DNA of 60,559 nt, from positions 1 to 60,559 of the forward strand of contig JAFAKE010000100.1 of assembly GCA_019235715.1 (NCBI GenBank). Direction: 5' to 3'. Positions 38,994-57,826 of the stretch are shown in pieces. Source of the stretch: Vulcanimicrobiota bacterium. Lineage in GTDB: Bacteria > Vulcanimicrobiota > Vulcanimicrobiia > Eremiobacterales > Eremiobacteraceae. Below the pieces are notes generated by a model. That model saw only the letters and a program-made list of their open reading frames with translations, made no database searches and was not told where the DNA came from. The position numbers and the translations under genes were made by a program. Position 1 is the stretch's first letter. Every line of letters begins with the position of its first letter.

Positions 38994-40463
38994 ATGAAGA
39001 GCGCCGTTATCATCGTCCATGGCATCGGTCCGCTTGATCGTTATCAGATCCAGGATCAATTCGCGGGCGAATTGCGCGACGCGCTGAACACCGAGACCGA
39101 CGACGAGCGGCGCCAGCGCTTCGGCGGCGAGCCGCCGCCGCGACAAGGCCAGTGGCACGCGGATGTGATCTGGCCGCCCGTGCAGCGCAATCAGGAACTC
39201 GAAGGCGTGCGTCCCAGCGCGGTGCGCGTGCACTGCGACAACCGCGGCGTCGACGTCTTGCAAGAGCCGTGTGTCGACGTGTTCGAAGCGTATTGGAGTC
39301 CGGCGGACAAAGGGCGCACGAACGCCTTCTCCGTCCTGACGTGGCTGTTGCGTTCGATATTTTCGCCGGTGGCGGATACGCGCATCGCCGCGCCGGCGCT
39401 GAAGACCGCGCACGACGTCGCCTGGGTCATCATCATCGCGCTGCTCGTTCCCGCGCTTGCCGTTCTGTCGCTCGGCAGCGCATATCGCGCGTACCTCGGC
39501 TTTGAAACGGGCACGTTGCGTCCGTTGGTGGCGCTGCTCGTCGGACTGGCGGGCGGCTATCTCGTCGCGCAAGGCTTGTCGCGCTTGGTTCCTCTGCTGT
39601 TCGTGTCGTCCGCCGGAAGGAGCACGCGCCGGCCGGTGCTTCTCGTCGTGCTCGGCCTTGCGATCGTCGCGCTGACCGCGTGGCTTGCCGGGGGCGAATA
39701 CTTCGACATCTTCGGGCGTCTTGGGTGGCTGCTCGTCACGACGACATCGGCCCGGCTGCTGCTGAGCCTCATGATCGATTTCCTCGACAACCGGATCGGC
39801 GATATCCAGATCTACGCGACGCACAATGAGAACGAGAGCTTCTTCGCGCTGCGCGAGAAGATCTTGCAGATCGTCGGAGATACGACGCTGTCAGTGCTGC
39901 GAACGAAGGATGGATTGCTCGCCAAGCCGCTGTACGACCGTGTGTATCTTGTCGGCCACAGCCTCGGATCGAGCATCTTGATGGACGTGATCATCGAGCT
40001 CCACCGGTTGCTCATGGAAGGCGGACTCGACGAATCATCGTGGAGCCGGCTGCGCTGCTTTGTCAGTTACGGCAGCGCGCTGGAGAAGACGCACTATCTA
40101 CTCGGTTGCGCGCGTCCGCGACCGCCGCAACAAGTCAGCGAGTTCAAAACTGACCTTTACAGCCGTTTGTTCAGCGCGGACATCTCGGCGCTGCGCCCTG
40201 CGAGTGCGGCGACGCGGCCTCCGATGTTCTGGACCAATTATTGGTATTTCTCCGACGTCGTCGCCAACGCGATCGCTTCGTACGGACACGCACGCGACGT
40301 AGATCAGCCGCCCGTTGACGGCACCCACTACACGTGTCTGAACGCGCAGCTGCCGTCGCCGGCCGGCGTGCTCTGGTCGCACAACTACTATCTCAACGAC
40401 CGCAGCGTGTGGCACTCTGCAGGCGAGCGGCGCGGCTTAGCGACGATTCTCGCGGCGTCGTAA
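38994..40463 (+). CDS. Membrane-embedded alpha/beta hydrolase (lipase-like)
   Basis: A 489-residue protein with an unusual layout. The N-terminus has an oxyanion-type IIVHGIGPL strand. A block of four hydrophobic helices (about 140-260) is inserted before the nucleophile elbow GHSLGSS (about 325). A late His may be in GTHYTCL or WSHNYY. The soluble hydrolase halves thus flank a membrane domain. I do not recognise a named family, although hydrolases with such insertions exist. The substrate could be a membrane lipid. Confidence 0.6.
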   Translation: MKSAVIIVHGIGPLDRYQIQDQFAGELRDALNTETDDERRQRFGGEPPPRQGQWHADVIWPPVQRNQELEGVRPSAVRVHCDNRGVDVLQEPCVDVFEAYWSPADKGRTNAFSVLTWLLRSIFSPVADTRIAAPALKTAHDVAWVIIIALLVPALAVLSLGSAYRAYLGFETGTLRPLVALLVGLAGGYLVAQGLSRLVPLLFVSSAGRSTRRPVLLVVLGLAIVALTAWLAGGEYFDIFGRLGWLLVTTTSARLLLSLMIDFLDNRIGDIQIYATHNENESFFALREKILQIVGDTTLSVLRTKDGLLAKPLYDRVYLVGHSLGSSILMDVIIELHRLLMEGGLDESSWSRLRCFVSYGSALEKTHYLLGCARPRPPQQVSEFKTDLYSRLFSADISALRPASAATRPPMFWTNYWYFSDVVANAIASYGHARDVDQPPVDGTHYTCLNAQLPSPAGVLWSHNYYLNDRSVWHSAGERRGLATILAAS

Positions 40464-40543
40464 CGCCTGGGCCGCGCCTAAAGAGCTTTGAAGCCAAGGC
40501 TTTCCACCGTAACCTGCGAAGCTCCAATCTGGTACATGACGAC

Positions 40544-43500
40544 ATGTGGCTGACGCGTTTTACCCTCCGGCAACCCATCATCGCGACCCTGTTCTTCCTC
40601 GGCGTGGCCGTGTTCGGGCTGATCGGCTATTTCTCGATGGGCGAGAACATCATCCCCAACGTCAATTTCCCGATCGTGACGGTCACGGCCGCCTATCCGG
40701 GCGCCAGTCCGGAAGAGATGGAGCGGCTCGTCGTCAAGCCGATAGAAGATCAACTCCAGGGTCTTGCGCACCTCGACAAGGTCACGGCGATCGTACAAGA
40801 GGGCACGGCGACGATCACCGTCCAGTTCAAGCTGGGCACGGACGTCAATTTCGCCTCGACCGACGTGCAGCACGCGGTCGACGCCTCGCGCATCTATCTG
40901 CCCAACGATCTCGATCCGCCGCTCGTCGATAAGTTCGACGTCACATCGCAGCCCGTGCTCACCGAGGCGATCACCTCGAGCGTCTTATCGCCGGTCGAGC
41001 TGTCGAACATCATCACCACCGAAGTGGTGCCGGTGCTACGCGGTGTCAAAGGCGTCGGCGCGGTCGTCGTCGGCGGCAAATACACGCGCCAGATCACCGT
41101 GCAGCCGGATCTCGCACGGCTGCGCAGCGTCGGCCTGACGCTCTCGGATGTCAACAGTTCGCTGGCCGCCGGCAACGTCAGCATGCCGGGCGGCCGCTTG
41201 GACGAGCCGTTCGCCGAATCGACGGTCGGCGTGCGCGCCGACATCACCAACGCGCAACAGATCGCGCACCTGCCCTTGATGAACCCGCTCGGCTTCGCGT
41301 TCGGGCAACCCCAAGGCGCGAACGGCATTCCGCTGCGCATCGGCGATGTCGCCGAAGTGGTCGACGGCTATGCCGATCATCGCGTCATCTCGACGGTCAA
41401 TCACACGACCGCCAACATCGTCAGCATCTCGCGCGACGCCACGTCCGACACGGTCAAGACGACCCAAGCGGTGCGCGTGGCATTCGCCGGCCTACAGAAG
41501 CGCTACCCGCAGATCAAGTTCTCGGAGATCGACGCCGACCTTTATTTCACCCGCGACTCGATCAACGGCGTGCTCGAAAACCTTTTCGAAGGCATCCTGC
41601 TCACCGCGCTCGTGCTGCTTCTCTTCCTGCACGTCTGGCGCAGCGCGCTCGTCGTCATGATCGCGATCCCGACCTCTTTGCTCGCGACGTTCTTCGTTAT
41701 GTGGATGCTGGGATTCACCGTCGACGTGCTGTCCCTGATGGGACTTTCGCTGACGATCGGTATCCTCGTCGACGATTCGATCGTGGTGATCGAGAACATC
41801 ACGCGCCATCGCGAGATGGGCCAGCAGCCGGATGAGGCCGCGATCACCGGGCGCTCGGAGATCGGCGCCGCCGCGATCGCGATCACGCTCGTAGACGTCG
41901 TCGTGTTCGCGCCGATCGCGTTCATGTCGGGCATCATCGGCCAATACATGCGCGAGTTCGGGCTGGTCGTCGTATGCGCGACGCTGTTCTCGCTCCTCGT
42001 CTCCTTCACGCTGACGCCACTGCTCGCCGCGCATTGGGCATTGGTCCGTAAGCCCAAGCCGCCCGCCGGATTGTTCAAAGTCTTCGCCGACTGGTTCGAA
42101 CGCATGCGCGTCGCCTACCACGACCGCTGGCTGCCCGCGGCCATGGCGCATCCATATCTGACGTTTTTCGGCTCGCTCGGCATCGTGCTCGGCTCGGTGG
42201 TGCTCGCGGGCGTGCTGATCGGCGTCGGTGTCTTGCCGGGCGAGTTCCAGCCGTACACGGAGTGGGGCTACGCCAGCATCGATCTGAACTATCCGCCCGG
42301 TACTCCCATCGAGGTCACCGCGGCCGGCGCGCAACGTATCGGCCTCGCGCTTGAGAAGATGAAGGGCGTGAAGAACGTCTCGGTGACGGTCGGGCGCGCC
42401 GCGAACGGCGTCGATGAGATCGTGGGCGGCAACGTCGCGCATATCTGGGCGTTTCTCTATCAGAATCAGCGGCACGAAGAGCGCGGCATCGTCGCCAAAG
42501 TATCCACACTGGGTTACCTCGCGCCGGGTGCACGCATTTCTGCATCGGGTGCGCAAAATGCCGGTCAGCCGCCGATCGACTTCACGCTCAGCGGACCGAC
42601 GGAACAACTCGACCTTGCGAGCAAAAAGCTGCTCGCGTTCATCGCCAAGCAGCCCAACGCCGTCGACGTCACGGCGAGCAACGCGATCGTTGGTCCGCGC
42701 CTTGAGATCAGCATCGATCGCGATCGCGCGGCCGTGCTCGGCGTGAGTCCGCAAGACGCGGCGCTCACCGCGCGCGCGGCCGTCGGCGGCGTCATCTCGA
42801 CGCGCGTGCGCCAGCCCGAAGGCCTCATCGACGCCGTGGTGCAGCTGCCGCCGGCGACGAGGAACGATCCCGAACAGCTGCAGACCGTCGACGTGCGCTC
42901 GACCACGACCGGACAACTCGTTCCGCTTGGCGACGTCGCCAGCTTCACCAAGACCACGGAGCCGCCGTACATCGAACGCCAAGATCGCGAACGCATCGTC
43001 AGCATCACGGCGAACACCGCGAACGGAGCGCCGATCGGTCCGATCGTCGACAAAGTCACGCAAGCGCTCAACACGCCGGGCTTCTTGCCCGCCGGCGTAC
43101 ACGTCACGACACAGGGCGATACGCAGCTCTTCGGCGACGCGATCGCCAAGATCGGGCTCGCGCTGGGGACCTCGTTCGTGCTCATCTACATGCTGCTCGT
43201 CGTGCTCTACCGCAGCTATTTGACGCCGTTCGTCATCATGATGAGCTTGCCGGCCGCGATCGTCGGCGTCATCGGCGTGCTCATCATCCTCAACCTGCTC
43301 AACCTCGCGTTCCCGGACTTCCACGTTCAGCTTGGACGCTTCTATCTGCGGCCGTTCGCGGGGCAGACCCTGAACTTGTTCTCGATGCTCGGCGTCGTGA
43401 TGCTGACCGGCCTTGTCGCCAAGAACGGCATCCTGCTCGTCGACTATGCGAACACGATGCGCGCGCGCGGTTTGGCGCTCGTCGACGCGATGCGCGAATC

Positions 43501-43795
43501 GGCGGCGGTCCGCTTCCGTCCGATCGTCATGACGACCGCCGCGATGATCGCCGGCATGACGCCGCTGGCTCTCGGGTTGACAGAGGGCGCTGAGTTCCGC
43601 AAGTCGATCGGCACGGTCATCATCGGCGGATTGACCAGCTCGCTATTCCTGACATTATTCCTCGTCCCGGTGGTCTACGTGGCCGTCGTCGGCTACTTCG
43701 ACCGCCTGGCCCAGCGCAAGCTGGCACGCCAGCTCACCGTGGCGAAGGAGCCGGAAGCCCCAACCGGAACCGAGGAGGCGCTGGGCGCGCGCTGA
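40544..43795 (+). CDS. RND efflux permease, HAE-1 type, first of a tandem pair
   Basis: A 1083-residue RND pump. Helix-4 relay residues are D410-D411 (GILVDDSIVVIENITRH) and the helix-10 Lys is K960 (AKNGILLVDYANT). Both periplasmic loops are intact. ATG 40544 begins MWLTRF, the usual cytoplasmic amphipathic start; the longer frame to 40334 overlaps the lipase-like gene and is rejected. It is about 60% similar by eye to the next gene and lies 68 bases before it. No adaptor or channel protein is nearby. Confidence 0.93.
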   Translation: MWLTRFTLRQPIIATLFFLGVAVFGLIGYFSMGENIIPNVNFPIVTVTAAYPGASPEEMERLVVKPIEDQLQGLAHLDKVTAIVQEGTATITVQFKLGTDVNFASTDVQHAVDASRIYLPNDLDPPLVDKFDVTSQPVLTEAITSSVLSPVELSNIITTEVVPVLRGVKGVGAVVVGGKYTRQITVQPDLARLRSVGLTLSDVNSSLAAGNVSMPGGRLDEPFAESTVGVRADITNAQQIAHLPLMNPLGFAFGQPQGANGIPLRIGDVAEVVDGYADHRVISTVNHTTANIVSISRDATSDTVKTTQAVRVAFAGLQKRYPQIKFSEIDADLYFTRDSINGVLENLFEGILLTALVLLLFLHVWRSALVVMIAIPTSLLATFFVMWMLGFTVDVLSLMGLSLTIGILVDDSIVVIENITRHREMGQQPDEAAITGRSEIGAAAIAITLVDVVVFAPIAFMSGIIGQYMREFGLVVVCATLFSLLVSFTLTPLLAAHWALVRKPKPPAGLFKVFADWFERMRVAYHDRWLPAAMAHPYLTFFGSLGIVLGSVVLAGVLIGVGVLPGEFQPYTEWGYASIDLNYPPGTPIEVTAAGAQRIGLALEKMKGVKNVSVTVGRAANGVDEIVGGNVAHIWAFLYQNQRHEERGIVAKVSTLGYLAPGARISASGAQNAGQPPIDFTLSGPTEQLDLASKKLLAFIAKQPNAVDVTASNAIVGPRLEISIDRDRAAVLGVSPQDAALTARAAVGGVISTRVRQPEGLIDAVVQLPPATRNDPEQLQTVDVRSTTTGQLVPLGDVASFTKTTEPPYIERQDRERIVSITANTANGAPIGPIVDKVTQALNTPGFLPAGVHVTTQGDTQLFGDAIAKIGLALGTSFVLIYMLLVVLYRSYLTPFVIMMSLPAAIVGVIGVLIILNLLNLAFPDFHVQLGRFYLRPFAGQTLNLFSMLGVVMLTGLVAKNGILLVDYANTMRARGLALVDAMRESAAVRFRPIVMTTAAMIAGMTPLALGLTEGAEFRKSIGTVIIGGLTSSLFLTLFLVPVVYVAVVGYFDRLAQRKLARQLTVAKEPEAPTGTEEALGAR

Positions 43796-43863
43796 CCCGC
43801 AACGGCGGCCAGGTCACCTGAAATTTCAGTAACTTACACGGCACACGGCGAGTAGGATTTGGC

Positions 43864-46800
43864 ATGTGGCTCACGCGTTTCGCCATTCGGCAACCGACGG
43901 TCGTCACGTTGTTTTTCCTCGCCGTCGCGGTGTTCGGCATCATCGGCTTTTTCGAGATGGGCGTCAACGTCAATCCGCCCGTCACGCTCCCGGCGGTCAT
44001 CGTCTACGCACCATATTCCGGCGCGAGTCCTGAAGAGATCGAGCGGCTGGTCATCCGTCCGATCGAAGACCAGTTGCAAAACGTGCGCCACGTCGACCGC
44101 ATCTTCGCGCGCGCGCAGGAAGGCTCGGGCTTCATCAGCGTCCAGCTCAAGCTGGGCGCCAACGTCGACTTCGCAGCGACAGACGTCCAGCAAGCCGTCG
44201 ATGCGGCGCGCATCAACCTGCCGACCGATCTCGATCCGCCTGTCGTCAGCAAGGAAGATCCGAACGCGCAGCCGATCCTCAGCGAGTATCTGACTTCGAA
44301 GAAGCTCTCGCCGGTCGAACTTTCGAACCTCGTCGAGACCGAAGTCGTGCCGGCGTTGCGCGGCGTGCACGGCGTCGGCTACGTCAACGTCAGCGGCGAA
44401 TTCATCCGCGAGATCCACGTCCAGCCGGATCTGGCGCGTCTGCAGATGCTGGGCGCTACGCCCGTCGACGTGGTCAACTCTGTCGGCCAGGGCAACGTCA
44501 GCATGCCCGGCGGCCGCTTGGATGAAGCGTTCCGGGAAGCGACGGTCGGCATCCGGGCCGACATCACCGACCCGGCGCAGATCGCGCAGCTTCCGCTCGT
44601 CGTTCCCAACGCGTCGCCCAACCAGATCAAGATCGGCGATGTGGCCAATGTGCTGGACACGTACCAGGATCACCGCCTCGCATCTGAGGTCAACGGCCAG
44701 CCGGCGATCGTGCTGAGCGTCGCACACGACAGCGATGCGGACACGCAGCGCACGACGCAAGCGATCCGCGCGGCGTTCGCCCAGCTGACCGAGAAATATC
44801 CCGATGTCCGCTTCCAAGAGCTTTCGGCGGACGAAGATTTCTTGCACGAAGCCGTCGACGGCGTCATGTCCAACCTGTTCGAAGGCGTGTTGCTCACCGC
44901 GCTCGTGCTGCTGCTGTTCCTACACGTCATCCGCAGCGCGGCGGTCGTGATGATCGCGATTCCGACGTCCATTTTGGCGACGTTCCTCGTCATGTGGCTG
45001 CTCGGCTTCTCGATCGACCTACTTTCGCTCATGGGACTCTCGCTGACCATCGGCATCCTTGTCGACGACTCGATCGTCGTCATCGAGAACATCACCAGGC
45101 ATCGCGAGATGGGCAAGCCGCCCGAAGAAGCGGCGATCGTCGGGCGTACGGAGATCGGCGGCGCGGCGATCGCGATCACGCTCGTCGACGTCGTCGTCTT
45201 CACACCCATCGCGTTCATGGGCGGCATCGTCGGCCAGTTCTTGCGCGAGTACGGGCTCGTGATCGTGACGGCGACGCTGTTCTCGCTGCTCGTGTCGTTC
45301 ACGCTCACGCCGCTGCTCTCGGCGCACTGGGCGCTGCTGCGCCGGCCCAAGCAGACGACGTTTTCGTCGCGCGGCATCGCTATCACATTGGTGGTCGTCG
45401 GTATCGTGTCGCTGCTCGGCATCGCGGCGCGCATCGCCGGCCTACTCAGCGGCCCATTGCTCGTCGCCCTGCTGATGCTCACCTTCACGGTCGCGCTGCT
45501 CGCGCTGCTCTACAACCACTTCAACGCGTGGTTCGAAGCGCTGCGCCGCTGGTATCACGATACGCTGCTGCCGAACGCGCTGCGCCATCCGTACTTGGTC
45601 GGCTTCGGTTCGCTTGGGCTCGTTTTGGCTTCGATCGTCGTTGCGGCCATTCTCGTACCCACCGAATTCACTCCCGACACCGAATACGGCTCGGCATCGG
45701 CGAGCATCACCTATCCGGTGGGCACGCCCATCGCGGTGACGACCGCCGGTGCAGAACGCATGGCTGCCATTCTGCGCAAGCGTGATGACGTGCGCGAAGT
45801 CGTCGTCAACGTCGGCGCGGACACGAACGACGTCAACGGCGGCTACGTCGCCAACCTGCAGGTGAACCTCAAGCCTGAGCGCCGCCACGATCAGCATCTC
45901 GTCGTCGATCAAATGCGCCACATGGAGTCGGTCGTTCCGGGTGCGTACATCAACGCCGGCGGCGAGGGCGGCGCGCAGATGATCTACACGCTGCTGGGTC
46001 CGCCCGACAAGCTCTACGAAGCGGCCGATAAGCTCGTCGCATATATAAAGAAGATCCCGAACACGATCGACGTCGTCGCGACCAGCGAAATCGTCGGACC
46101 GCGCCTTGAGATCGACATCGACCGCGCGCGCGCGGCCACGCTCGGCGTGTCGCCGCAGGCGATCGCGCTGACCGCCCGCGCCTCAGTCGGCGGCGTCATC
46201 GCCACGAAGATGCGTTCGAACGAAGGGTTGGTCAACACGATCGTCCAGCTGCCGCCCGGAACGCGCAACGACTTCCGCAATCTGACCTACGTGCCCGTGC
46301 GCGCCCAAGACGGCGTCACGCTCGTGCCCATGGCCGACGTCGCGCACTTCCGCTGGGTCACCGAGCCGCCGACGCTGCGGCGCGAAGACCGGCAGCGCAT
46401 CGTGCGCGTCTTTTCGGACACCGTGAACGGCGCACCGATCGGACCGATCGATTCGAAGGTCCAAGCGGTCTTGCGCCAGCCGGGCTTTCTGCCCGCCGGC
46501 GTCCAGGTGTTGGCTGAGGGCGACACGCAGTTCTTGGGCGACACGATGAACAAGATCGGCATCGCGCTGGTCACGTCGTTCATGCTGATCTACATGTTGC
46601 TCGTGATCCTGTATCGCAGCTATCTCGAGCCGTTCATCATCATGCTCAGCATACCGCTGGCGCTTGTCGGCGCGCTCGGCATTTTGGTCGTTTGTAATCT
46701 CATCCACATGGTGGCGCCGGACCTGCGCTGGTTTGCCGGACAGACGCTCAACATCTTCTCGATGCTCGGCATCGTGATGCTCATGGGGCTGGTGGCCAAG

Positions 46801-47172
46801 AACGGTATCTTGCTCGTCGATTACGCGAACACGCTGCACGCGCGCGGTCTTTCTCTGCTGGACTCCGTGGCTGAATCGGCCGCGATCCGGTTCCGGCCCA
46901 TCATGATGACCACGGCAGCGATGATCGTCGGCATGACGCCGCTCGCGCTCGGCTTCACCGAAGGCGCCGAGTTCCGCAAGTCGATGGGCACGGTCATCAT
47001 CGGCGGCTTGACCAGCTCGCTGCTGTTGACGCTGTTCCTCGTGCCGGTCATGTACGTCGTGATCGTCGGCGCCGTCGAACGCTATCGCCAGCGCCAGCTG
47101 AGCAAACGCCTCGTGCTCGCCGCGGACGAGGACGAAGCCGTCGGCAGTCCCCTGAACGCGCCAGGCTCGTAG
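43864..47172 (+). CDS. RND efflux permease, HAE-1 type, second of a tandem pair
   Basis: A 1102-residue RND pump, paralogous to the preceding gene from the MWLTRF start to the C-terminal helix. Relay residues are D401-D402 and K979. Compared with its neighbour it has an extra hydrophobic pair near 500-545 (ITLVVVGIVSLLGIAARIAG), which would add membrane helices in the central region. The two genes probably arose by duplication and may form a heterotrimer, as in MdtBC-type pumps (inference). Confidence 0.93.
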   Translation: MWLTRFAIRQPTVVTLFFLAVAVFGIIGFFEMGVNVNPPVTLPAVIVYAPYSGASPEEIERLVIRPIEDQLQNVRHVDRIFARAQEGSGFISVQLKLGANVDFAATDVQQAVDAARINLPTDLDPPVVSKEDPNAQPILSEYLTSKKLSPVELSNLVETEVVPALRGVHGVGYVNVSGEFIREIHVQPDLARLQMLGATPVDVVNSVGQGNVSMPGGRLDEAFREATVGIRADITDPAQIAQLPLVVPNASPNQIKIGDVANVLDTYQDHRLASEVNGQPAIVLSVAHDSDADTQRTTQAIRAAFAQLTEKYPDVRFQELSADEDFLHEAVDGVMSNLFEGVLLTALVLLLFLHVIRSAAVVMIAIPTSILATFLVMWLLGFSIDLLSLMGLSLTIGILVDDSIVVIENITRHREMGKPPEEAAIVGRTEIGGAAIAITLVDVVVFTPIAFMGGIVGQFLREYGLVIVTATLFSLLVSFTLTPLLSAHWALLRRPKQTTFSSRGIAITLVVVGIVSLLGIAARIAGLLSGPLLVALLMLTFTVALLALLYNHFNAWFEALRRWYHDTLLPNALRHPYLVGFGSLGLVLASIVVAAILVPTEFTPDTEYGSASASITYPVGTPIAVTTAGAERMAAILRKRDDVREVVVNVGADTNDVNGGYVANLQVNLKPERRHDQHLVVDQMRHMESVVPGAYINAGGEGGAQMIYTLLGPPDKLYEAADKLVAYIKKIPNTIDVVATSEIVGPRLEIDIDRARAATLGVSPQAIALTARASVGGVIATKMRSNEGLVNTIVQLPPGTRNDFRNLTYVPVRAQDGVTLVPMADVAHFRWVTEPPTLRREDRQRIVRVFSDTVNGAPIGPIDSKVQAVLRQPGFLPAGVQVLAEGDTQFLGDTMNKIGIALVTSFMLIYMLLVILYRSYLEPFIIMLSIPLALVGALGILVVCNLIHMVAPDLRWFAGQTLNIFSMLGIVMLMGLVAKNGILLVDYANTLHARGLSLLDSVAESAAIRFRPIMMTTAAMIVGMTPLALGFTEGAEFRKSMGTVIIGGLTSSLLLTLFLVPVMYVVIVGAVERYRQRQLSKRLVLAADEDEAVGSPLNAPGS

Positions 47173-48840: not shown

Positions 48841-51800
48841 TTACGTGCGCGGAGGCAGTTTGGGCGGCGCCAGGTTCGGCCTGCCATCAAACGACGGCAG
48901 TTTGACCGGCTTGCGCTGCAGCTCGTCGAGGATCAGCCCGAGCGCCTTATCCATCTGCGGATCTTTGCCGTCGCGATAGTCCTGCGGCGCGACGTCGACC
49001 TCGTAGTCGGGATCGGTGCCGTAGTTCTCGACCTTCCAGCCGACGTCGACGAACCAGAAAGAAAATTCCGGCTGCGTCGTCACGGTGCCGTCCACGAGCG
49101 GATGCTGCGGCCAGATTCCGATCACGCCGCCCCACGTGCGCTTTCCGACCAGTGGTCCGAGCTTGTACAACTTGAAGCAGTGGCTGAAGATGTCACCGTC
49201 GGAGCCCGCGAACTGGTTGGTCAGACCGACCATCGGCCCGGCGACCGATTCGTCAGGATACGGCCGCGGCACGCCGTGGCGCGGGATGTCGTAGCCGACG
49301 CGGCTGCGCGACAGCTTCTCGAGCAGCAGCGCGGACACGTGGCCGCCGCGATTGTAACGTGCGTCCACGACGAGCGCGCCGCGGTTGAACTCCGCCAAGA
49401 AGCCGCGATGGAACTCAGCGAACCCCGCCGGCCCCATATCGGGGATGTGCACGTAGCCGACGCGTCCGTTCGAGCGCTCGTGCACGAGCCGGCGGTTGGC
49501 CTCCACCCATTCGCGATAGCGTAGAGCGCGCTCGTCGCGCAAGGTCTTGACGATCACGCGGCGCCGCACGCCTTCAAGGTCGAGCAGGGTCAGCGCGACC
49601 TCCCGGCCGGCGAGATTGACGAGCAGCGCCTCGACCGACGTCTGCCGGTTGACGGGATGTCCACCGACGTTGACGATGATCTCGCCCTCGCGCACGCGCA
49701 AACCAGGTTCGGCCAGCGGCGAATCGGTATCTCGATTCCACGAATCGCCGCGTAAGATGCGCTTGATCTTGTAACCGCCGCTCGCCTCATCGAACGCAAG
49801 ATCGGCGCCAAGCAGGCCGACGCGATACGACGGCGGACGGCGGTAGTCGCCGAAGTATTCGTACGCGTGCGACGTGCCAAGCTCGCCTTGCATCTCCCAG
49901 AACAGGTCCGAGAGCTCGCCGCGCGTGCGCACGCGCGGGAGCAGCTTGGCGTAACGGTCGCGCACGACGTTCCAGTCGACCTGCGACATCGCCTCATCCC
50001 AGAATTGCTCGCGCTGCAGACGCCACGCTTCATAGTACATCTGCGCCCACTCGTCGCGCGGCTCGACCAGCACTGAGATGCGGCTCAAGTCTATCCAGCC
50101 GGACCTGCGGCTCGCATCGTCGGGGATCGGCGGCCGCGGATCGCCGTCGCCGAGCGGCTCCAGCGCATTGATCGCGCGCAAGCGGCAACCCGAGCGATAC
50201 ACGAGCGTCCGGCCATCGGCAGCAAGGCGGATCTCGCCGATCTGATTTGCCAGACTGCCGCAGCGCTGTTCGCTGAAATCGTAGGCGAGCAGGGTGCCGT
50301 CCTCGTGGCTGTCTTCCTTTATAAACGAATGCCCCAAGCTGCCGCGCACGGGGAATTGGGTGAACAGCGCGCGGCCCGGCGCGCCTGCGATTTGATCGTA
50401 TCGCCCCTCATCGACGGGGAAGCCGATCACGCGTCCGTTGATCCCTTCAAAATCGATCTCAACGCTCGCCGACGGTTTGGGCGATTCCGAGGGAGCCGGC
50501 GGTGCGGGTTCGGCAGGTTTGGTCTCGGCTTTGGTCGCGGTCGGCACGCGTGCGAGCACGTCTGTGGTCGAACCGGGTGCGCTCGTGCGGGCGGGACCGT
50601 CATCGTGCGCCGGCTCGTCGTACTCGTGAGGCGCCGGCGTCTTCGGTGCGCCGTCGAAAGCGCGCGCCTTCGGCACGAACGGAGAAGGCGTGTCGCCGCG
50701 CAGCGTCACCAAGAAGGGCCGCATCGCGAACGGGAAGCTGAGGTCGAACTGCAGCGCATCGTAGACCGGATTGAAGTCGCGCGTGGAAAGAAAATACAGA
50801 TACTTGCCATCCGGATCCCATGCCGGCGAACGATCGAAACGCAACGGCGCGGTGATATCACGGACGTTGCCGGTCGAGGCTTCGGCGACGCGGATGATCG
50901 ACTGGTCGCCGTGCGGCGCGTACGTGTACGCGACCCAGCGCCCGTCCGGCGACCAGGCGAGATCGCTGACGCGCATGCCAGGGCTGCGGTCGACGACACG
51001 CGCTTGTCCGGAGTCGAGATTCACGATCGCCAGCTCGTGACGGTGGTTCGCCACGGCGACGACATCGGCTGTGGGTGACACGGCAAGTCCGACGATGCGC
51101 CCGAGATCGATATCGCTCACGTTGACGGCCGGCTGGCTGTCGTCGGCCCAGAAGATCTGCAGATGCTCGCTTCCGCCTTCGTCGGTCACCGCGACGAAGC
51201 GTAGGCCATCGCGCAGCCACGACGCGTGGCGATAGCGCACGCGGCTGCCGGTGCCGTGATGCGTGACCGCCTCTTCCCACAAAGGCATCGTGAACGGCTG
51301 TCCGCGTGCGATGAGCGCCAGCGAGCGTCCGTCGGGATGCGGCGCGAAATGTTCGAGCGTCGGCGCCGCGTCGACAAAGCGGCGAGCCGTTTGGGTTGTG
51401 CCCGATGGCGCGCTCACTTCGATGCGCGCGGTCGTGTCGGATGCGGCGTTATGCACGTAGAGATCGCCGCCGGCCGCATAGACGACACGCGTGCCGTCGC
51501 TCGATGGGAAGCGCACGTAATACTCGTCGTGATCGGTATGGCGGCGCACGTCTGAGCCGTCGGCTTTACACGAATACAGATTGCCGATGCCTTCGTGATC
51601 GGAGAGGAAGTAGATACGGCCGGCCACCCACATAGGCGTCACCGTGTTGCCGCCTAGCGACGGGAGTTTCGTGAACGTGCCGGCGCCCGAAGCATCGACC
51701 CAGATCTCGCCGCTGGTTCCGCCGCGGTAACGCTTCCAGCGCGCGGGATCGTTATTGTTGCGGCCGATGACCTTGGCGCCGTTCTTGGCGATATCGAGGG

Positions 51801-52212
51801 AGAGAAGATGGCCGAGGTTGAGAGGCTGCGGATTGCCGCCGCGGCGATCGATCGCAAACGCTTCGGTGTGCCGCAAGAACGGCGAGCGCCCATCGGTGGC
51901 GAACAACACGCTCTCGCCATCGGGCGACCACCCCGTGATCGCGCACGTCTCGGCGCCGAGATAGGTGAGCCGGACCGCGTCGCCGCCCTCGGACGGGATC
52001 ACGCAGACCTCGGGCACTCCCTCCTCTCGGCCGATGAACGCGATATGGCGTCCGTCGGGTGAGAAGCGCGGCGTCGAGCATTCGCCCAGCCCCGCGGTCA
52101 AGCGGCGAGCAGTGCCGCCCGACACGGGCACCGACCACAGATCGTCCTCACACACAAATGCGATGACATCGCCGGCGATCGTGGGTTGGCGATAATACCC
52201 TGCGTTGCTCAT
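48841..52212 (-). CDS. Tricorn-type protease (S41 family)
   Basis: A 1123-residue protein from ATG 52212. The N-terminal two-thirds hold beta-propeller repeats of WD40/TolB type (repeated SPDGR/WSPDG motifs). A Pro/Ala-rich linker (about 500-560), a C1 region, a PDZ-like domain (LAEPGLRVREGEIIVNVGG) and the S41 catalytic domain follow. Catalytic residues match tricorn: His782 in GTSHAY and nucleophile Ser1004 in FAGSDGD. Tricorn degrades oligopeptides from the proteasome or other proteases in the cytoplasm. No signal peptide is seen. Confidence 0.92.
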   Translation of the reverse strand: MSNAGYYRQPTIAGDVIAFVCEDDLWSVPVSGGTARRLTAGLGECSTPRFSPDGRHIAFIGREEGVPEVCVIPSEGGDAVRLTYLGAETCAITGWSPDGESVLFATDGRSPFLRHTEAFAIDRRGGNPQPLNLGHLLSLDIAKNGAKVIGRNNNDPARWKRYRGGTSGEIWVDASGAGTFTKLPSLGGNTVTPMWVAGRIYFLSDHEGIGNLYSCKADGSDVRRHTDHDEYYVRFPSSDGTRVVYAAGGDLYVHNAASDTTARIEVSAPSGTTQTARRFVDAAPTLEHFAPHPDGRSLALIARGQPFTMPLWEEAVTHHGTGSRVRYRHASWLRDGLRFVAVTDEGGSEHLQIFWADDSQPAVNVSDIDLGRIVGLAVSPTADVVAVANHRHELAIVNLDSGQARVVDRSPGMRVSDLAWSPDGRWVAYTYAPHGDQSIIRVAEASTGNVRDITAPLRFDRSPAWDPDGKYLYFLSTRDFNPVYDALQFDLSFPFAMRPFLVTLRGDTPSPFVPKARAFDGAPKTPAPHEYDEPAHDDGPARTSAPGSTTDVLARVPTATKAETKPAEPAPPAPSESPKPSASVEIDFEGINGRVIGFPVDEGRYDQIAGAPGRALFTQFPVRGSLGHSFIKEDSHEDGTLLAYDFSEQRCGSLANQIGEIRLAADGRTLVYRSGCRLRAINALEPLGDGDPRPPIPDDASRRSGWIDLSRISVLVEPRDEWAQMYYEAWRLQREQFWDEAMSQVDWNVVRDRYAKLLPRVRTRGELSDLFWEMQGELGTSHAYEYFGDYRRPPSYRVGLLGADLAFDEASGGYKIKRILRGDSWNRDTDSPLAEPGLRVREGEIIVNVGGHPVNRQTSVEALLVNLAGREVALTLLDLEGVRRRVIVKTLRDERALRYREWVEANRRLVHERSNGRVGYVHIPDMGPAGFAEFHRGFLAEFNRGALVVDARYNRGGHVSALLLEKLSRSRVGYDIPRHGVPRPYPDESVAGPMVGLTNQFAGSDGDIFSHCFKLYKLGPLVGKRTWGGVIGIWPQHPLVDGTVTTQPEFSFWFVDVGWKVENYGTDPDYEVDVAPQDYRDGKDPQMDKALGLILDELQRKPVKLPSFDGRPNLAPPKLPPRT

Positions 52213-52261
52213 AAGAGGAAAAGAATTAGCGTCGCCGGGTGCGGGTGCCTGCGAACTGCGC

Positions 52262-53275
52262 TCACGGCCGCGTCGCCGGCGGCGTCGGTCCTTGCGGCAG
52301 AACCTCGTTCGTCGTGCCCGTAGGCACGACTCCGGCAAGCATATCGTGCCATGCCTTGCTCGCCATCGGAGCGACCGATTGCAGTGAATGCGTGCCATCG
52401 GGCTGCTCGTAGTATGTCACGAGCGCGCCGTTGGAGCGCAGCCACGACGCGAGCTGGCGCATATACGCGGCGCTGACGCTGGCGTCGTTGCTGCCGGCCA
52501 CCAGATACAACGCTTTACCGTGCACATGTGCCGCGACAAAATCGCTGTCGCCCTGCGCCACCGCTCCTTCGATCACAAGCCCCGCGCGCCAGCGCTCCGG
52601 TCCCTCGGCAAGTGTGCGGAATGCGGCAAAACCGCCGAGCGAGTTGCCCGCCAGGAACGTGTGGCGACGGTCGGCGTGCATGGCGTCTTCGATCGCGCCG
52701 AGCGCTTGGTATAATTCGCCGATGCTCGCGTCGCTGAGCATATCTTCATCGCTCGAATACGGCGCGACGACCACCGCTCCGCCCGCGTCGGCCCACGAGC
52801 GCACGAGAGGAGATGCGATCACGTCCGCTTCGCTTTGCCCTTTACCATGCAGATAGATGATGAGCGGTGTCATGCCGTGCACGATAACAGACGTGGGCAC
52901 GTATATCGCGAGCGCGTGCGCGAGCTTCTTGGGACCAATCGCCGGCAGCAATCCGGCGGATGCGCCACGTACCGCGCTTAACGACACGTAGGTCTGGGTG
53001 GCGAGCTGATCGACGAGCCCAGCATCGAGTTGCGCGAGCAACAGCATCTCGTCGGGACTGGCCGTGGTCGCGACCTGTGACAGGTGGGCCCGCAAGCGCG
53101 CCGTGAGTACTTGCGTCAATCCCGAGCGCTGGTCGATCTCCGCCGCGTTCGCGCTAAGTTCGCGCTGCGCGTTTTCGAGCAGCGATCGCGCCTGCTCCGT
53201 GCGCGTGTCGGGCACATCGGCGCGCGCGGCCGACAAAGTCAGCACAAGCAGCGCAAGAAGGCCCAGGACCCGCAT
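52262..53275 (-). CDS. Exported alpha/beta hydrolase
   Basis: A 337-residue protein from ATG 53275. A signal peptide (VLGLLALLVLTLSAARA) leads into a helical segment of about 100 residues, then a hydrolase domain: LIIYLHGKGQS (oxyanion loop), AGNSLGGFAA (nucleophile elbow, Ser), and GTHSL (His). It resembles periplasmic dienelactone-hydrolase or esterase-like proteins. The longer frame to 53866 is antisense to glgA and is rejected. It is divergent from glgA over 75 bases. Confidence 0.78.
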   Translation of the reverse strand: MRVLGLLALLVLTLSAARADVPDTRTEQARSLLENAQRELSANAAEIDQRSGLTQVLTARLRAHLSQVATTASPDEMLLLAQLDAGLVDQLATQTYVSLSAVRGASAGLLPAIGPKKLAHALAIYVPTSVIVHGMTPLIIYLHGKGQSEADVIASPLVRSWADAGGAVVVAPYSSDEDMLSDASIGELYQALGAIEDAMHADRRHTFLAGNSLGGFAAFRTLAEGPERWRAGLVIEGAVAQGDSDFVAAHVHGKALYLVAGSNDASVSAAYMRQLASWLRSNGALVTYYEQPDGTHSLQSVAPMASKAWHDMLAGVVPTGTTNEVLPQGPTPPATRP

Positions 53276-54790: not shown

Positions 54791-54844
54791 GTGTGCCGGT
54801 CGCTCGGACGGAAACGGGCGCTCGCACTGCGAATGTCAGAGAGC

Positions 54845-55396
54845 ATGAAAGCCAAAGCGTCGGTGGTCTGTCTGATAGCGCTTGTCCTCATCGCTTCGGC
54901 AGCGGCCCGGGCGAGCGCCGCTCAAGCGATGCTTGAGGACGGAGCCGCGGTACCAGCGGTGCCCGCGCTGCAATCCGTGTTCGACGGCAACGACACGCCG
55001 TTCGACCTGAAACAGGCCTCGGCCGGCACGACGCTCGTCCTCTATTTCTTCCCGCAAGCATTCACGTCGGACTGAACCATCGAGGCGAAAGCCTACGCCG
55101 CCAGGTTGGCGGACTTCAAAAAGCTCGACGCGACGGTGGTCGGCATATCCTACGATCCGATCGATGTGCTCAAACGGTTCCAGTCTGAAGAGCAGGCGCC
55201 GCAGCGTTTCGTGTCGGACCCCAAGGGCGTCGCGGCCGATGCATTCGGCGTATCCGCGAGTTCGCAAGGTCAACAGTACGCGAAACGAGCGACGTTCATC
55301 ATCCGAGACGGCACGGTCGTGCACACGGTGTTCGACTGGAGCCCGCTGGGTAACGTGAACAAGACATTCGACTGGTTGAGCGCGCACCCAAAGTGA
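54845..55396 (+). CDS. Candidate selenocysteine-containing peroxiredoxin (in-frame TGA at the active site)
   Basis: Reading through one TGA (55073-55075) gives 183 residues. A signal peptide (VVCLIALVLIASAAARASA) is followed by a thioredoxin-fold AhpC/TSA domain: LVLYFFPQAFTSDUTIEA, with U at 77. This is the peroxiredoxin motif PxxxTxxC with selenocysteine in place of the peroxidatic Cys. No other Cys follows, so it would act as a 1-Sec peroxidase. The family continues normally after the TGA (VVGISYDPIDVLKRF, TFIIRDGTVV). The start may be ATG 54845 or 54833. The stop overlaps the downstream TlpA-like start. The alternative is a nonsense mutation or base error; the position argues against chance. 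Confidence 0.75.
55098..55112 (+). promoter_or_regulatory. Candidate bacterial SECIS hairpin
   Basis: CCGCC (55098-55102), loop AGGTT, GGCGG (55108-55112): a perfect five-base stem. The loop begins 28 bases after the in-frame TGA, with G among the first two to three loop bases. This fits the general description of bacterial SECIS elements, and the loop resembles the AGGUCU loop of E. coli fdhF. The hairpin lies inside the coding sequence, as required for SelB delivery. Confidence 0.6.
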
Positions 55397-55926
55397 TGCC
55401 GCGCGCCGCCTTGGCGTTCGGCGTGTTCGCCGTGTTGCTGATGCCGCCGGCCGGACGGGGGTTTTTTCTCGACCAGGCGGCCGCAGCCCCAAAGCCTCCG
55501 CTGGTGGAGCAGAGCGCGCCTGCGTTCTCCGTGCAGCTCATCGCCAACGGCGATGGCGAATTTGTGTTGGCGCAGCAGCGCGGCCATGGCGTCTATGTCA
55601 ATTTCTTCGCGTCATGGTGCAAGCCGTGCACGCAGGAAGCGCAGACGATAGAGACGATCGCTCCGCCGTTCATGCGGCAGGGCGTGCGCGTCGTCGGGAT
55701 TGCCGTGCTCGACGATCGCGCCGCTGCACTCGCGTTCGCGCGCGCCCATCATCTGACATATCCCATCGCGTTCGACACGTCGGGCAAGACCGGCGCGGCC
55801 TACCGTCTCGAGCAACTGCCGCTGCATGTCTTCATCGGGCCTGACGGCATCGTCGATCAATACGTTTCCGGAGGACCCATTCCGGCGCAAGAGCTGCGCG
55901 CGGGTCTCACGCAAATCGCGCGCTAG
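55393..55926 (+). CDS. Exported TlpA/ResA-like thioredoxin-fold protein
   Basis: A 177-residue protein with an N-terminal signal or anchor (FGVFAVLLMPPAG). The thioredoxin active site is WCKPC (Cys76 and Cys79), preceded by VNFFAS, and a cis-Pro region lies at LEQLPLHVFIG. It reduces periplasmic disulfides or other thiols. The GTG at 55393 overlaps the stop of the peroxiredoxin (GTGA); an ATG follows directly at 55396. The tight coupling suggests it recycles the selenenylated or oxidised form of that peroxidase. Confidence 0.85.
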   Translation: MMPRAALAFGVFAVLLMPPAGRGFFLDQAAAAPKPPLVEQSAPAFSVQLIANGDGEFVLAQQRGHGVYVNFFASWCKPCTQEAQTIETIAPPFMRQGVRVVGIAVLDDRAAALAFARAHHLTYPIAFDTSGKTGAAYRLEQLPLHVFIGPDGIVDQYVSGGPIPAQELRAGLTQIAR

Positions 55927-56029
55927 GATTTCTCACCTGCGCGCCCAAGGCGGGGCTCCTCGCGCGGACCGAGTCAGGTGCCCGAGTGCTGCAGGATAAT
56001 GCCAGGGCACCGAATCACACTTGTCGTCG

Positions 56030-57826
56030 ATGAGAACGCAACATCAGCGGTGGGCCTTATTCATGGCCGCCGCCCTCATCGTATTGGTTGTGGCCGGACG
56101 TGCAGCGCTTGGTCAAAAAGTTGAACCAAGCGATCCCACCTGGCATGGCTCGAAGACGATTTGGGATGCGGTCGTCGTCAACAATCCGGCGTCATGTTGG
56201 AGAGACGCACGCGAAGCGGTCGACAGCGGGCTCGATGGGTTCGATCCTGATGACGACTACACCGAGTACCGTGTCAGCTGGCAGCACTTCAAGGGTGACC
56301 TGCTCTCGCTGCCGCCGAACGGGGACGCAAGCAAACATCTCAACACATTTCAAAACGTCAATGGTCTCGAGACCGTGTCGTTCGACGTGCCGCTCGAGGG
56401 AGAGGATGAGTGGATCTATGTCGACATCATTGAGAATAAAGTCGCGTCACGCAAAGTGACCGATGGGACGTCCGAGCTGTGGCATTCGCTCACGATCGTC
56501 CACGGTGACAGCCTCTGCGGTCTCAAGGAAGGCAAGAACGAAGACGACGCGTATTTCGATGAGTTCACCGTCTGGTGGGATGGTTATTACGAGGACACGA
56601 AAACCCAAACCAGCGACGGCAAGAAGAAGCGGGAGTACAGCGCCAATCTTGACGCCGCGTGGCAAAAACAAGTCACAACGCCGTTGAAGAATGAAGCGGG
56701 CGTCGATCTGATCCGATGCTGCAAGCTCAAGGTCACGACGACTCCTCCACCAGGAACCACCGGAACTCCCAAGCCCGGTACCAAGACGCCCACGCCCAAC
56801 GAAAAAACGCCGACACCGAAGCCCGCTAAGCCACGGTCGCCAGGCGGCGAGAAGAAGGGCGTTGAGTGGCGTCCGTATGACCACTGGGCGAACCACACTC
56901 CGGCCCCATTCCCAGCGCCTGTCGTTTCTCCGCTAGGAAAAGACAACGTTCATACGCCGGTATCGCCTTCGCCGGGTACCGGCGCCGGTACGGAAGGCGG
57001 AGTCTATCTCGCCCCGGCAGCGGGCCCGCGTTCGGTGATGTTCGGTACGGTTGAAGATCCGAGCACGGGCACGGTCGGCCCGACCGCTTACGTCGTCGGC
57101 GTCGTCCAACCAGACGGCAAGAAGACGTTCTGGCATGGCGTCACCGATGCGAACGGTCATCTCAATTTCAAGTTGCCGGCCATCGCCATCAGCGCGGTCA
57201 CGCTCTTCAGATTCTTCGACAAAGAGGGCATACCCGACAAAGGCGCCGAGTGCACGGTTGGAACCAACCCAGTCCCCGATCTCGAACAGATTCCGGAAAT
57301 TCCGGCACACCAAACGCCAGCCGTCCTGGGCGGCAGCTCGAGCTTGCAGCGCGGCGGCGCAGATCGTGGTTTGTTCAACCTTGAAACGCGCGGCAACGAT
57401 CCGCTGGACACGAGAGTGGTCATCGACGGTCGACCGACGGGCGCCGACGTCGTTGGTGCTTCGAACCGCAGCATCAGCGCTCGTCTTGAGGATGACCTCA
57501 CGCTCGGTCGCCATACCTTTGCGATACAATCGGACGGCAAACGGAGCAACGCGTTCGAGGCCGACGTCCTGGAGATCACACCGGATCCGCTGCCGACGCA
57601 GCACGTGGGCTCAGTCAACACCGTACGCGTGCACGTGATCGGCTTGCCGCTCTCGGATTCCGCGACAATGACGTTCGATGTCGGTGGCGCGGCTACGTTG
57701 CTCGACGGCGGCTCGCAGGTGACGGTGCCTGTCAAGAATGGAGTCGCGGAAATCCAGATCCGCGGCGTGCGCAGCGGCGAGTCGCTGGTGCGCTTCAGGC
57801 TTCAGGTCGAGCTAAAGCCGCTGTAG
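56030..57826 (+). CDS. Secreted multi-domain protein of unknown function
   Basis: A 598-residue protein with an N-terminal signal or anchor (WALFMAAALIVLVVAG). The first 215 residues are rich in Trp, Asp and Tyr with three conserved-looking Cys. A Pro/Thr/Lys linker follows (about 225-300, PKPGTKTPTPNEKTPTPKP-like). The C-terminal part has Ig-like or CARDB-like beta segments (VVIDGRPTGADVVG and STVRVHVIG-type strands). No catalytic motif is recognised. ATG 56030 is chosen; TTG 56021 is in frame. Confidence 0.7.
   Translation: MRTQHQRWALFMAAALIVLVVAGRAALGQKVEPSDPTWHGSKTIWDAVVVNNPASCWRDAREAVDSGLDGFDPDDDYTEYRVSWQHFKGDLLSLPPNGDASKHLNTFQNVNGLETVSFDVPLEGEDEWIYVDIIENKVASRKVTDGTSELWHSLTIVHGDSLCGLKEGKNEDDAYFDEFTVWWDGYYEDTKTQTSDGKKKREYSANLDAAWQKQVTTPLKNEAGVDLIRCCKLKVTTTPPPGTTGTPKPGTKTPTPNEKTPTPKPAKPRSPGGEKKGVEWRPYDHWANHTPAPFPAPVVSPLGKDNVHTPVSPSPGTGAGTEGGVYLAPAAGPRSVMFGTVEDPSTGTVGPTAYVVGVVQPDGKKTFWHGVTDANGHLNFKLPAIAISAVTLFRFFDKEGIPDKGAECTVGTNPVPDLEQIPEIPAHQTPAVLGGSSSLQRGGADRGLFNLETRGNDPLDTRVVIDGRPTGADVVGASNRSISARLEDDLTLGRHTFAIQSDGKRSNAFEADVLEITPDPLPTQHVGSVNTVRVHVIGLPLSDSATMTFDVGGAATLLDGGSQVTVPVKNGVAEIQIRGVRSGESLVRFRLQVELKPL

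Follow-up and report, generated by a model that had tools for sequence, protein, structure and literature searches.

The locus described here raises the question of whether a TGA codon at the active site of a peroxiredoxin gene terminates translation or is read as selenocysteine (Sec). The gene lies in a stretch of 60,559 nucleotides from a member of the Eremiobacteraceae (the window), and its features are compiled in Table 1. Read-through of positions 54845–55393 yields a protein of 183 amino acids with one in-frame stop, the TGA at 55073–55075. The preliminary description had proposed an otherwise intact peroxiredoxin gene with a single TGA at the catalytic position, and both points hold: the codon corresponds to residue 77, the peroxidatic site of the motif PQAFTSDU. 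The match to the Pfam family AhpC-TSA (PF00578) spans the TGA and covers residues 47–160 (83.9 bits at a cut-off of 26), so that the similarity to the family does continue beyond the codon, as had been stated. In the alignment, the active site comprises P70, T74 (nearly invariant), U77, and R148, which is invariant. The mature part of the protein, modeled by AlphaFold2 with 41 homologues, gave a mean pLDDT of 97, and in the PDB this model was most similar to BCP/PrxQ-type and AhpC-type peroxiredoxins (TM up to 0.88). The hydrophobic N-terminus and its AxA-type end are shared by the relatives, and on this basis the protein is probably exported. Its only cysteine, residue 9, lies inside the predicted signal peptide, and hence no cysteine downstream of the TGA could act as a substitute, in line with the earlier claim.

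Table 1. Features of the peroxiredoxin locus (positions refer to the window)
Feature	Position	Strand	Remarks
Exported Sec-peroxiredoxin, predicted CDS	54845..55396	+	183 aa with TGA as Sec; stop codon TGA 55394-55396
Signal peptide MKAKASVVCLIALVLIASAAARASA, N-terminal, predicted	54845..54919	+	from the sequence; hydrophobic, AxA-type end
Putative Sec codon TGA, residue 77, peroxidatic position in PQAFTSDU	55073..55075	+	column comparison with homologues
bSECIS-type hairpin CCGCC-AGGUU-GGCGG	55098..55112	+	loop 55103-55107; 27 nt after UGA; conservation
TlpA/ResA-like periplasmic thioredoxin, WCKPC, predicted	55393..55926	+	Pfam AhpC-TSA/Redoxin; NCBIfam ResA-like below cut-off

Under translation table 11, the locus breaks up into open reading frames of 94 and 96 amino acids, the latter with a TTG start. 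In addition, an antisense frame of 218 amino acids (54836–55492, also with a TTG start) covers the gene and is longer than either sense fragment. Mis-annotation, as previously suspected, is therefore likely and, since gene callers split such a gene in two, exported selenoenzymes have likely been missed in Eremiobacterota. Ordinary genes of the window end in TGA, indicating that the genetic code is unchanged. Elsewhere in the window, two genes for AcrB-type RND transporters are arranged in tandem (40334–47172), a Tricorn-type protease with PDZ_Tricorn, Tricorn_C1, and Peptidase_S41 domains is encoded on the minus strand (48841–52398), and an open frame of 601 amino acids with no Pfam match at 0.001 is located downstream of the TlpA gene (56021–57826).

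Alignment of the relatives across the TGA revealed that the column holds either TGA or a cysteine codon. TGA occurs at this position in 12 Eremiobacterota genomes, namely in 10 of the 11 copies of the window's family and in two copies of a sister family (one in G039 and a fragment in G075), which supports the earlier argument that the codon is not a chance nonsense mutation. The remaining copy of the window's family, in genome G011, has TGC. No stop interrupts any of the listed full-length orthologues from a third family of the class, and Cys occupies the column in all 18 aligned copies. Frameshifts or stops elsewhere in the gene, which had been named beforehand as evidence against the proposal, were not seen in any aligned relative. 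Among the best 80 loci of a contig-database search, 78 came from outside the phylum and all of these have Cys at the column, although the search may have overlooked Sec copies from other phyla because one search pattern demanded a Cys codon at this position. The Eremiobacteria Sec copies in this search were L051 and L052, with Candidatus Eremiobacteria as named neighbours. In the phylogenetic tree, which was midpoint-rooted only and in which the sister-family row is long, all Sec copies are located on one side of a branch with 99/97 support, and the Cys copy of G011 is nested among them. The fewest changes would thus be one switch between Cys and Sec on this branch and one reversion from Sec to Cys in G011. 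Two species pairs gave dN/dS values of 0.16 and 0.09 for the region after the TGA; this region is under purifying selection.

The bacterial SECIS (bSECIS) model requires a loop of 3–9 nt with a G followed by G/U near its start, a stem of 4–16 bp, a spacing of 16–37 nt, and a folding energy of at most −7.5 kcal/mol (PMC13188914). The hairpin downstream of the TGA satisfies this model with a spacing of 27–28 nt, a stem of 5–6 bp, the loop (A)GGU(U), and −8.6 kcal/mol. All 11 tested TGA copies passed the model, compared to none of 19 Cys copies including that of G011, in which the hairpin is broken. The stem is invariant in 10 of 10 Sec copies of the family, while the sister-family hairpin consists of other bases and has a longer stem. 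As the family stem is nearly invariant, compensatory changes are few and limited to one pair in a sister-family copy. Among the Sec copies of the family, synonymous codons agree more often in the 13 codons that follow the TGA (identity 0.78) than before the TGA (0.50) or further downstream (0.46). Alanines within these 13 codons are always encoded by GCC GCC and GCG; the loop codon is always AGG or AGT. Folded alone, the hairpin region did not differ significantly from shuffled sequences (z −0.98), and an Rfam scan of the region returned no match. The hairpin by itself is therefore unremarkable, and the SECIS argument rests on its conservation and on the contrast between Sec and Cys copies. 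A loose hairpin screen of all TGA codons in the window was passed by 46 of them and is non-specific; for this reason, no further Sec gene is claimed in the window.

A search of the genome that contains the window (2.5 Mb at 96% completeness) for selA, selB, selC, and selD, as suggested in the preliminary description, identified the complete set. The tRNA-Sec has the anticodon TCA and scored 75.4 bits (cut-off 47), and SelA, SelB, and SelD scored 523.9 (cut-off 268), 312 (cut-off 242), and 370 bits (cut-off 125), respectively, with the C-terminal winged helix present in SelB. A single contig carries selA, selB, and the tRNA-Sec gene. Among the genomes of the order, all of which are multi-contig drafts, 13 of 14 have a selB above the cut-off, the remaining one being a draft of 370 contigs.

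Two further observations concern Sec-related loci elsewhere. In L154:9867-17923 (G000:C29), selA-selB has two genes for Cys-type MsrA as well as a GST-like gene nearby in the same orientation. Furthermore, 13 genomes of the order, among them that of the window, encode a second Sec peroxiredoxin, which is PrxQ/BCP-like and likewise has TGA as its peroxidatic codon (L141–L153; copy L148 is found at G000:C92:74242-74703 on the minus strand). Twelve of these 13 copies pass the bSECIS model; nine copies, one of which fails, form a group with a GGUC-type loop at approximately +28, and in the other four the loop is AGUUCC and lies at +16.

Explanations of the TGA other than Sec have to be weighed against these results. 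The codon might be a nonsense mutation, so that the gene is either a pseudogene or yields a short N-terminal product that is still functional, as would fit an in-frame TGA in an organism that also uses this triplet as a normal stop. However, the same codon occurs in 12 genomes at exactly the catalytic residue, and the purifying selection past it, the conserved SECIS element, and the Sec machinery of the genome render a nonsense mutation very unlikely. Formally, UGA could also be decoded as Trp, Cys, or Ser through a suppressor or near-cognate tRNA, but TGA terminates ordinary genes of the window, the position coincides with the catalytic Cys column, and a SECIS hairpin and selABCD are present, so that we regard such decoding as highly improbable. 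An erroneous TGA in place of TGC or TGT would be a concern in a draft assembly; since the assemblies of 11 other species contain the same TGA, the probability of a sequencing or assembly error is negligible. The Sec reading is supported by the Sec machinery, the conserved column, the SECIS hairpin, and the purifying selection, and we estimate a probability of about 93% that the peroxidatic residue is Sec. Judging from the sequence, Sec would be inserted in vivo and the product would be exported and act as a peroxidase. Of the checks suggested in the preliminary description, every computational one favoured the Sec reading; the loss of the +40 Cys, the TlpA partner and its fusion, the reversion in one relative, and the second Sec peroxiredoxin were not part of that description.

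The Sec copies also differ from their Cys homologues at a second position. A second Cys at +40 from the peroxidatic residue is present in 78 of 78 Cys homologues from outside the phylum and in 18 of 18 aligned Cys copies of the third family of the class. In the mature peroxiredoxin domain, all Sec copies are devoid of cysteine, at +40 or elsewhere, and the Cys revertant of G011 lacks the +40 Cys likewise. We take the +40 residue to be the probable resolving Cys, as an analogy to atypical 2-Cys PrxQ enzymes suggests. Most likely, the lineage replaced Cys by Sec and lost the +40 Cys in the same evolutionary interval; as both changes map to one branch of the tree, their coupling represents a single unreplicated event.

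The loss of this resolving-type Cys makes direct reduction of the oxidised Sec by a TlpA-like protein most likely. The gene for a TlpA/ResA-like thioredoxin starts at GTG 55393 or ATG 55396 and overlaps the peroxiredoxin stop codon. Such a gene is located directly downstream of the peroxiredoxin gene in 8 of 11 genomes of the family, and no TlpA-like neighbour was found at 97 further loci, 19 from within the class and 78 from outside the phylum. The three family members without it constitute one genus, indicating that the neighbour is not obligatory. In G002, which belongs to the window's genus, the Sec-peroxiredoxin and the TlpA-like domain are fused in an open frame of 332 amino acids (L022:1462-2457, G002:C88) that gives two Pfam matches and has a short linker in place of the leader of the second domain. 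Two proteins with a DsbD_TM domain are encoded in the window's genome. In Caulobacter, as summarised in PMC5403849, ScsB feeds electrons to TlpA and then to the envelope peroxiredoxin PprX (Cho et al. 2012). The likeness to the unit proposed here would consist in an envelope peroxiredoxin fed by TlpA and, putatively, a DsbD-like carrier; PprX has Cys where the window protein has Sec, and the comparison of the two systems covers the pathway layout.

SelB and tRNA-Sec would insert Sec at UGA 55073, directed by the downstream hairpin. Based on the gene pairing, the G002 fusion, the DsbD_TM proteins, and the likeness to Caulobacter, we propose that the oxidised Sec would be reduced directly by the TlpA/ResA-like thioredoxin of the overlapping gene, which in turn would draw electrons from the cytoplasm via a DsbD/CcdA-type membrane carrier. 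We consider reduction by the TlpA partner reasonably probable. Alternatively, the Sec enzyme might be reduced by another thiol, such as a different envelope thioredoxin or a low-molecular-weight thiol, and the TlpA neighbour might have another role, for example in cytochrome c maturation. This would agree with the three family members that have the peroxiredoxin without the TlpA neighbour and with the best score of the TlpA-like protein, which was obtained for ResA, the cytochrome c maturation reductase, and lies below the model cut-off. However, the overlap of the genes in most relatives and their fusion into one protein in G002 argue for a direct link in function, and reduction by another thiol appears less likely. 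Reduction by TlpA would be part of a peroxide-scavenging unit of the envelope, in which a one-Sec peroxiredoxin devoid of a resolving Cys is resolved by a dedicated TlpA, up to a self-contained fusion; such a unit is somewhat favoured by our data.

Peroxiredoxins with the motif PxxxTxxU are an established selenoprotein family (PMC13188914, PMC1794560, PMC1088965). Like the window protein, PrxU and its relatives (PF00578) have a peroxidatic Sec, an AhpC/TSA domain, and a downstream SECIS; in contrast to PrxU, the window protein looks exported, lacks further cysteines in its mature domain, and is accompanied by TlpA. It scored 35.8 bits against the PrxU equivalog NF040737 (cut-off 270) and 58.6 bits against the BCP/PrxQ equivalog NF006960 (cut-off 140), and thus below the cut-off of both. 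BCP/PrxQ structures such as 3hjp and 5epf resemble the window model in fold (TM 0.86–0.88) and are less than 30% identical. Outside the Sec clade, the nearest homologues are Cys peroxiredoxins of the exported type from Proteobacteria and a sister Eremiobacterota family, with approximately 30–40% identity. These share the domain, the hydrophobic N-terminal leader, and the motif with the window protein but differ in having a peroxidatic Cys, a second Cys at +40, and no adjacent TlpA gene. A literature search of limited extent yielded no paper tying Eremiobacterota (WPS-2) to bacterial selenoproteins. As far as this limited search allows, the exported, TlpA-coupled form without a resolving Cys appears to be new, while Sec-peroxiredoxins as such were already known.

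If the proposed unit is correct, a single gene family would show the replacement of a 2-Cys mechanism by Sec plus a partner protein, along with one natural reversion from Sec to Cys. The sister lineages with Cys and the +40 Cys, the window's family with Sec and without the +40 Cys, and G011 with Cys and without a second Cys would together constitute a natural experiment in which two questions become directly testable: why a peroxidatic site retains Sec, and whether an internal resolving thiol is less needed once Sec is present.
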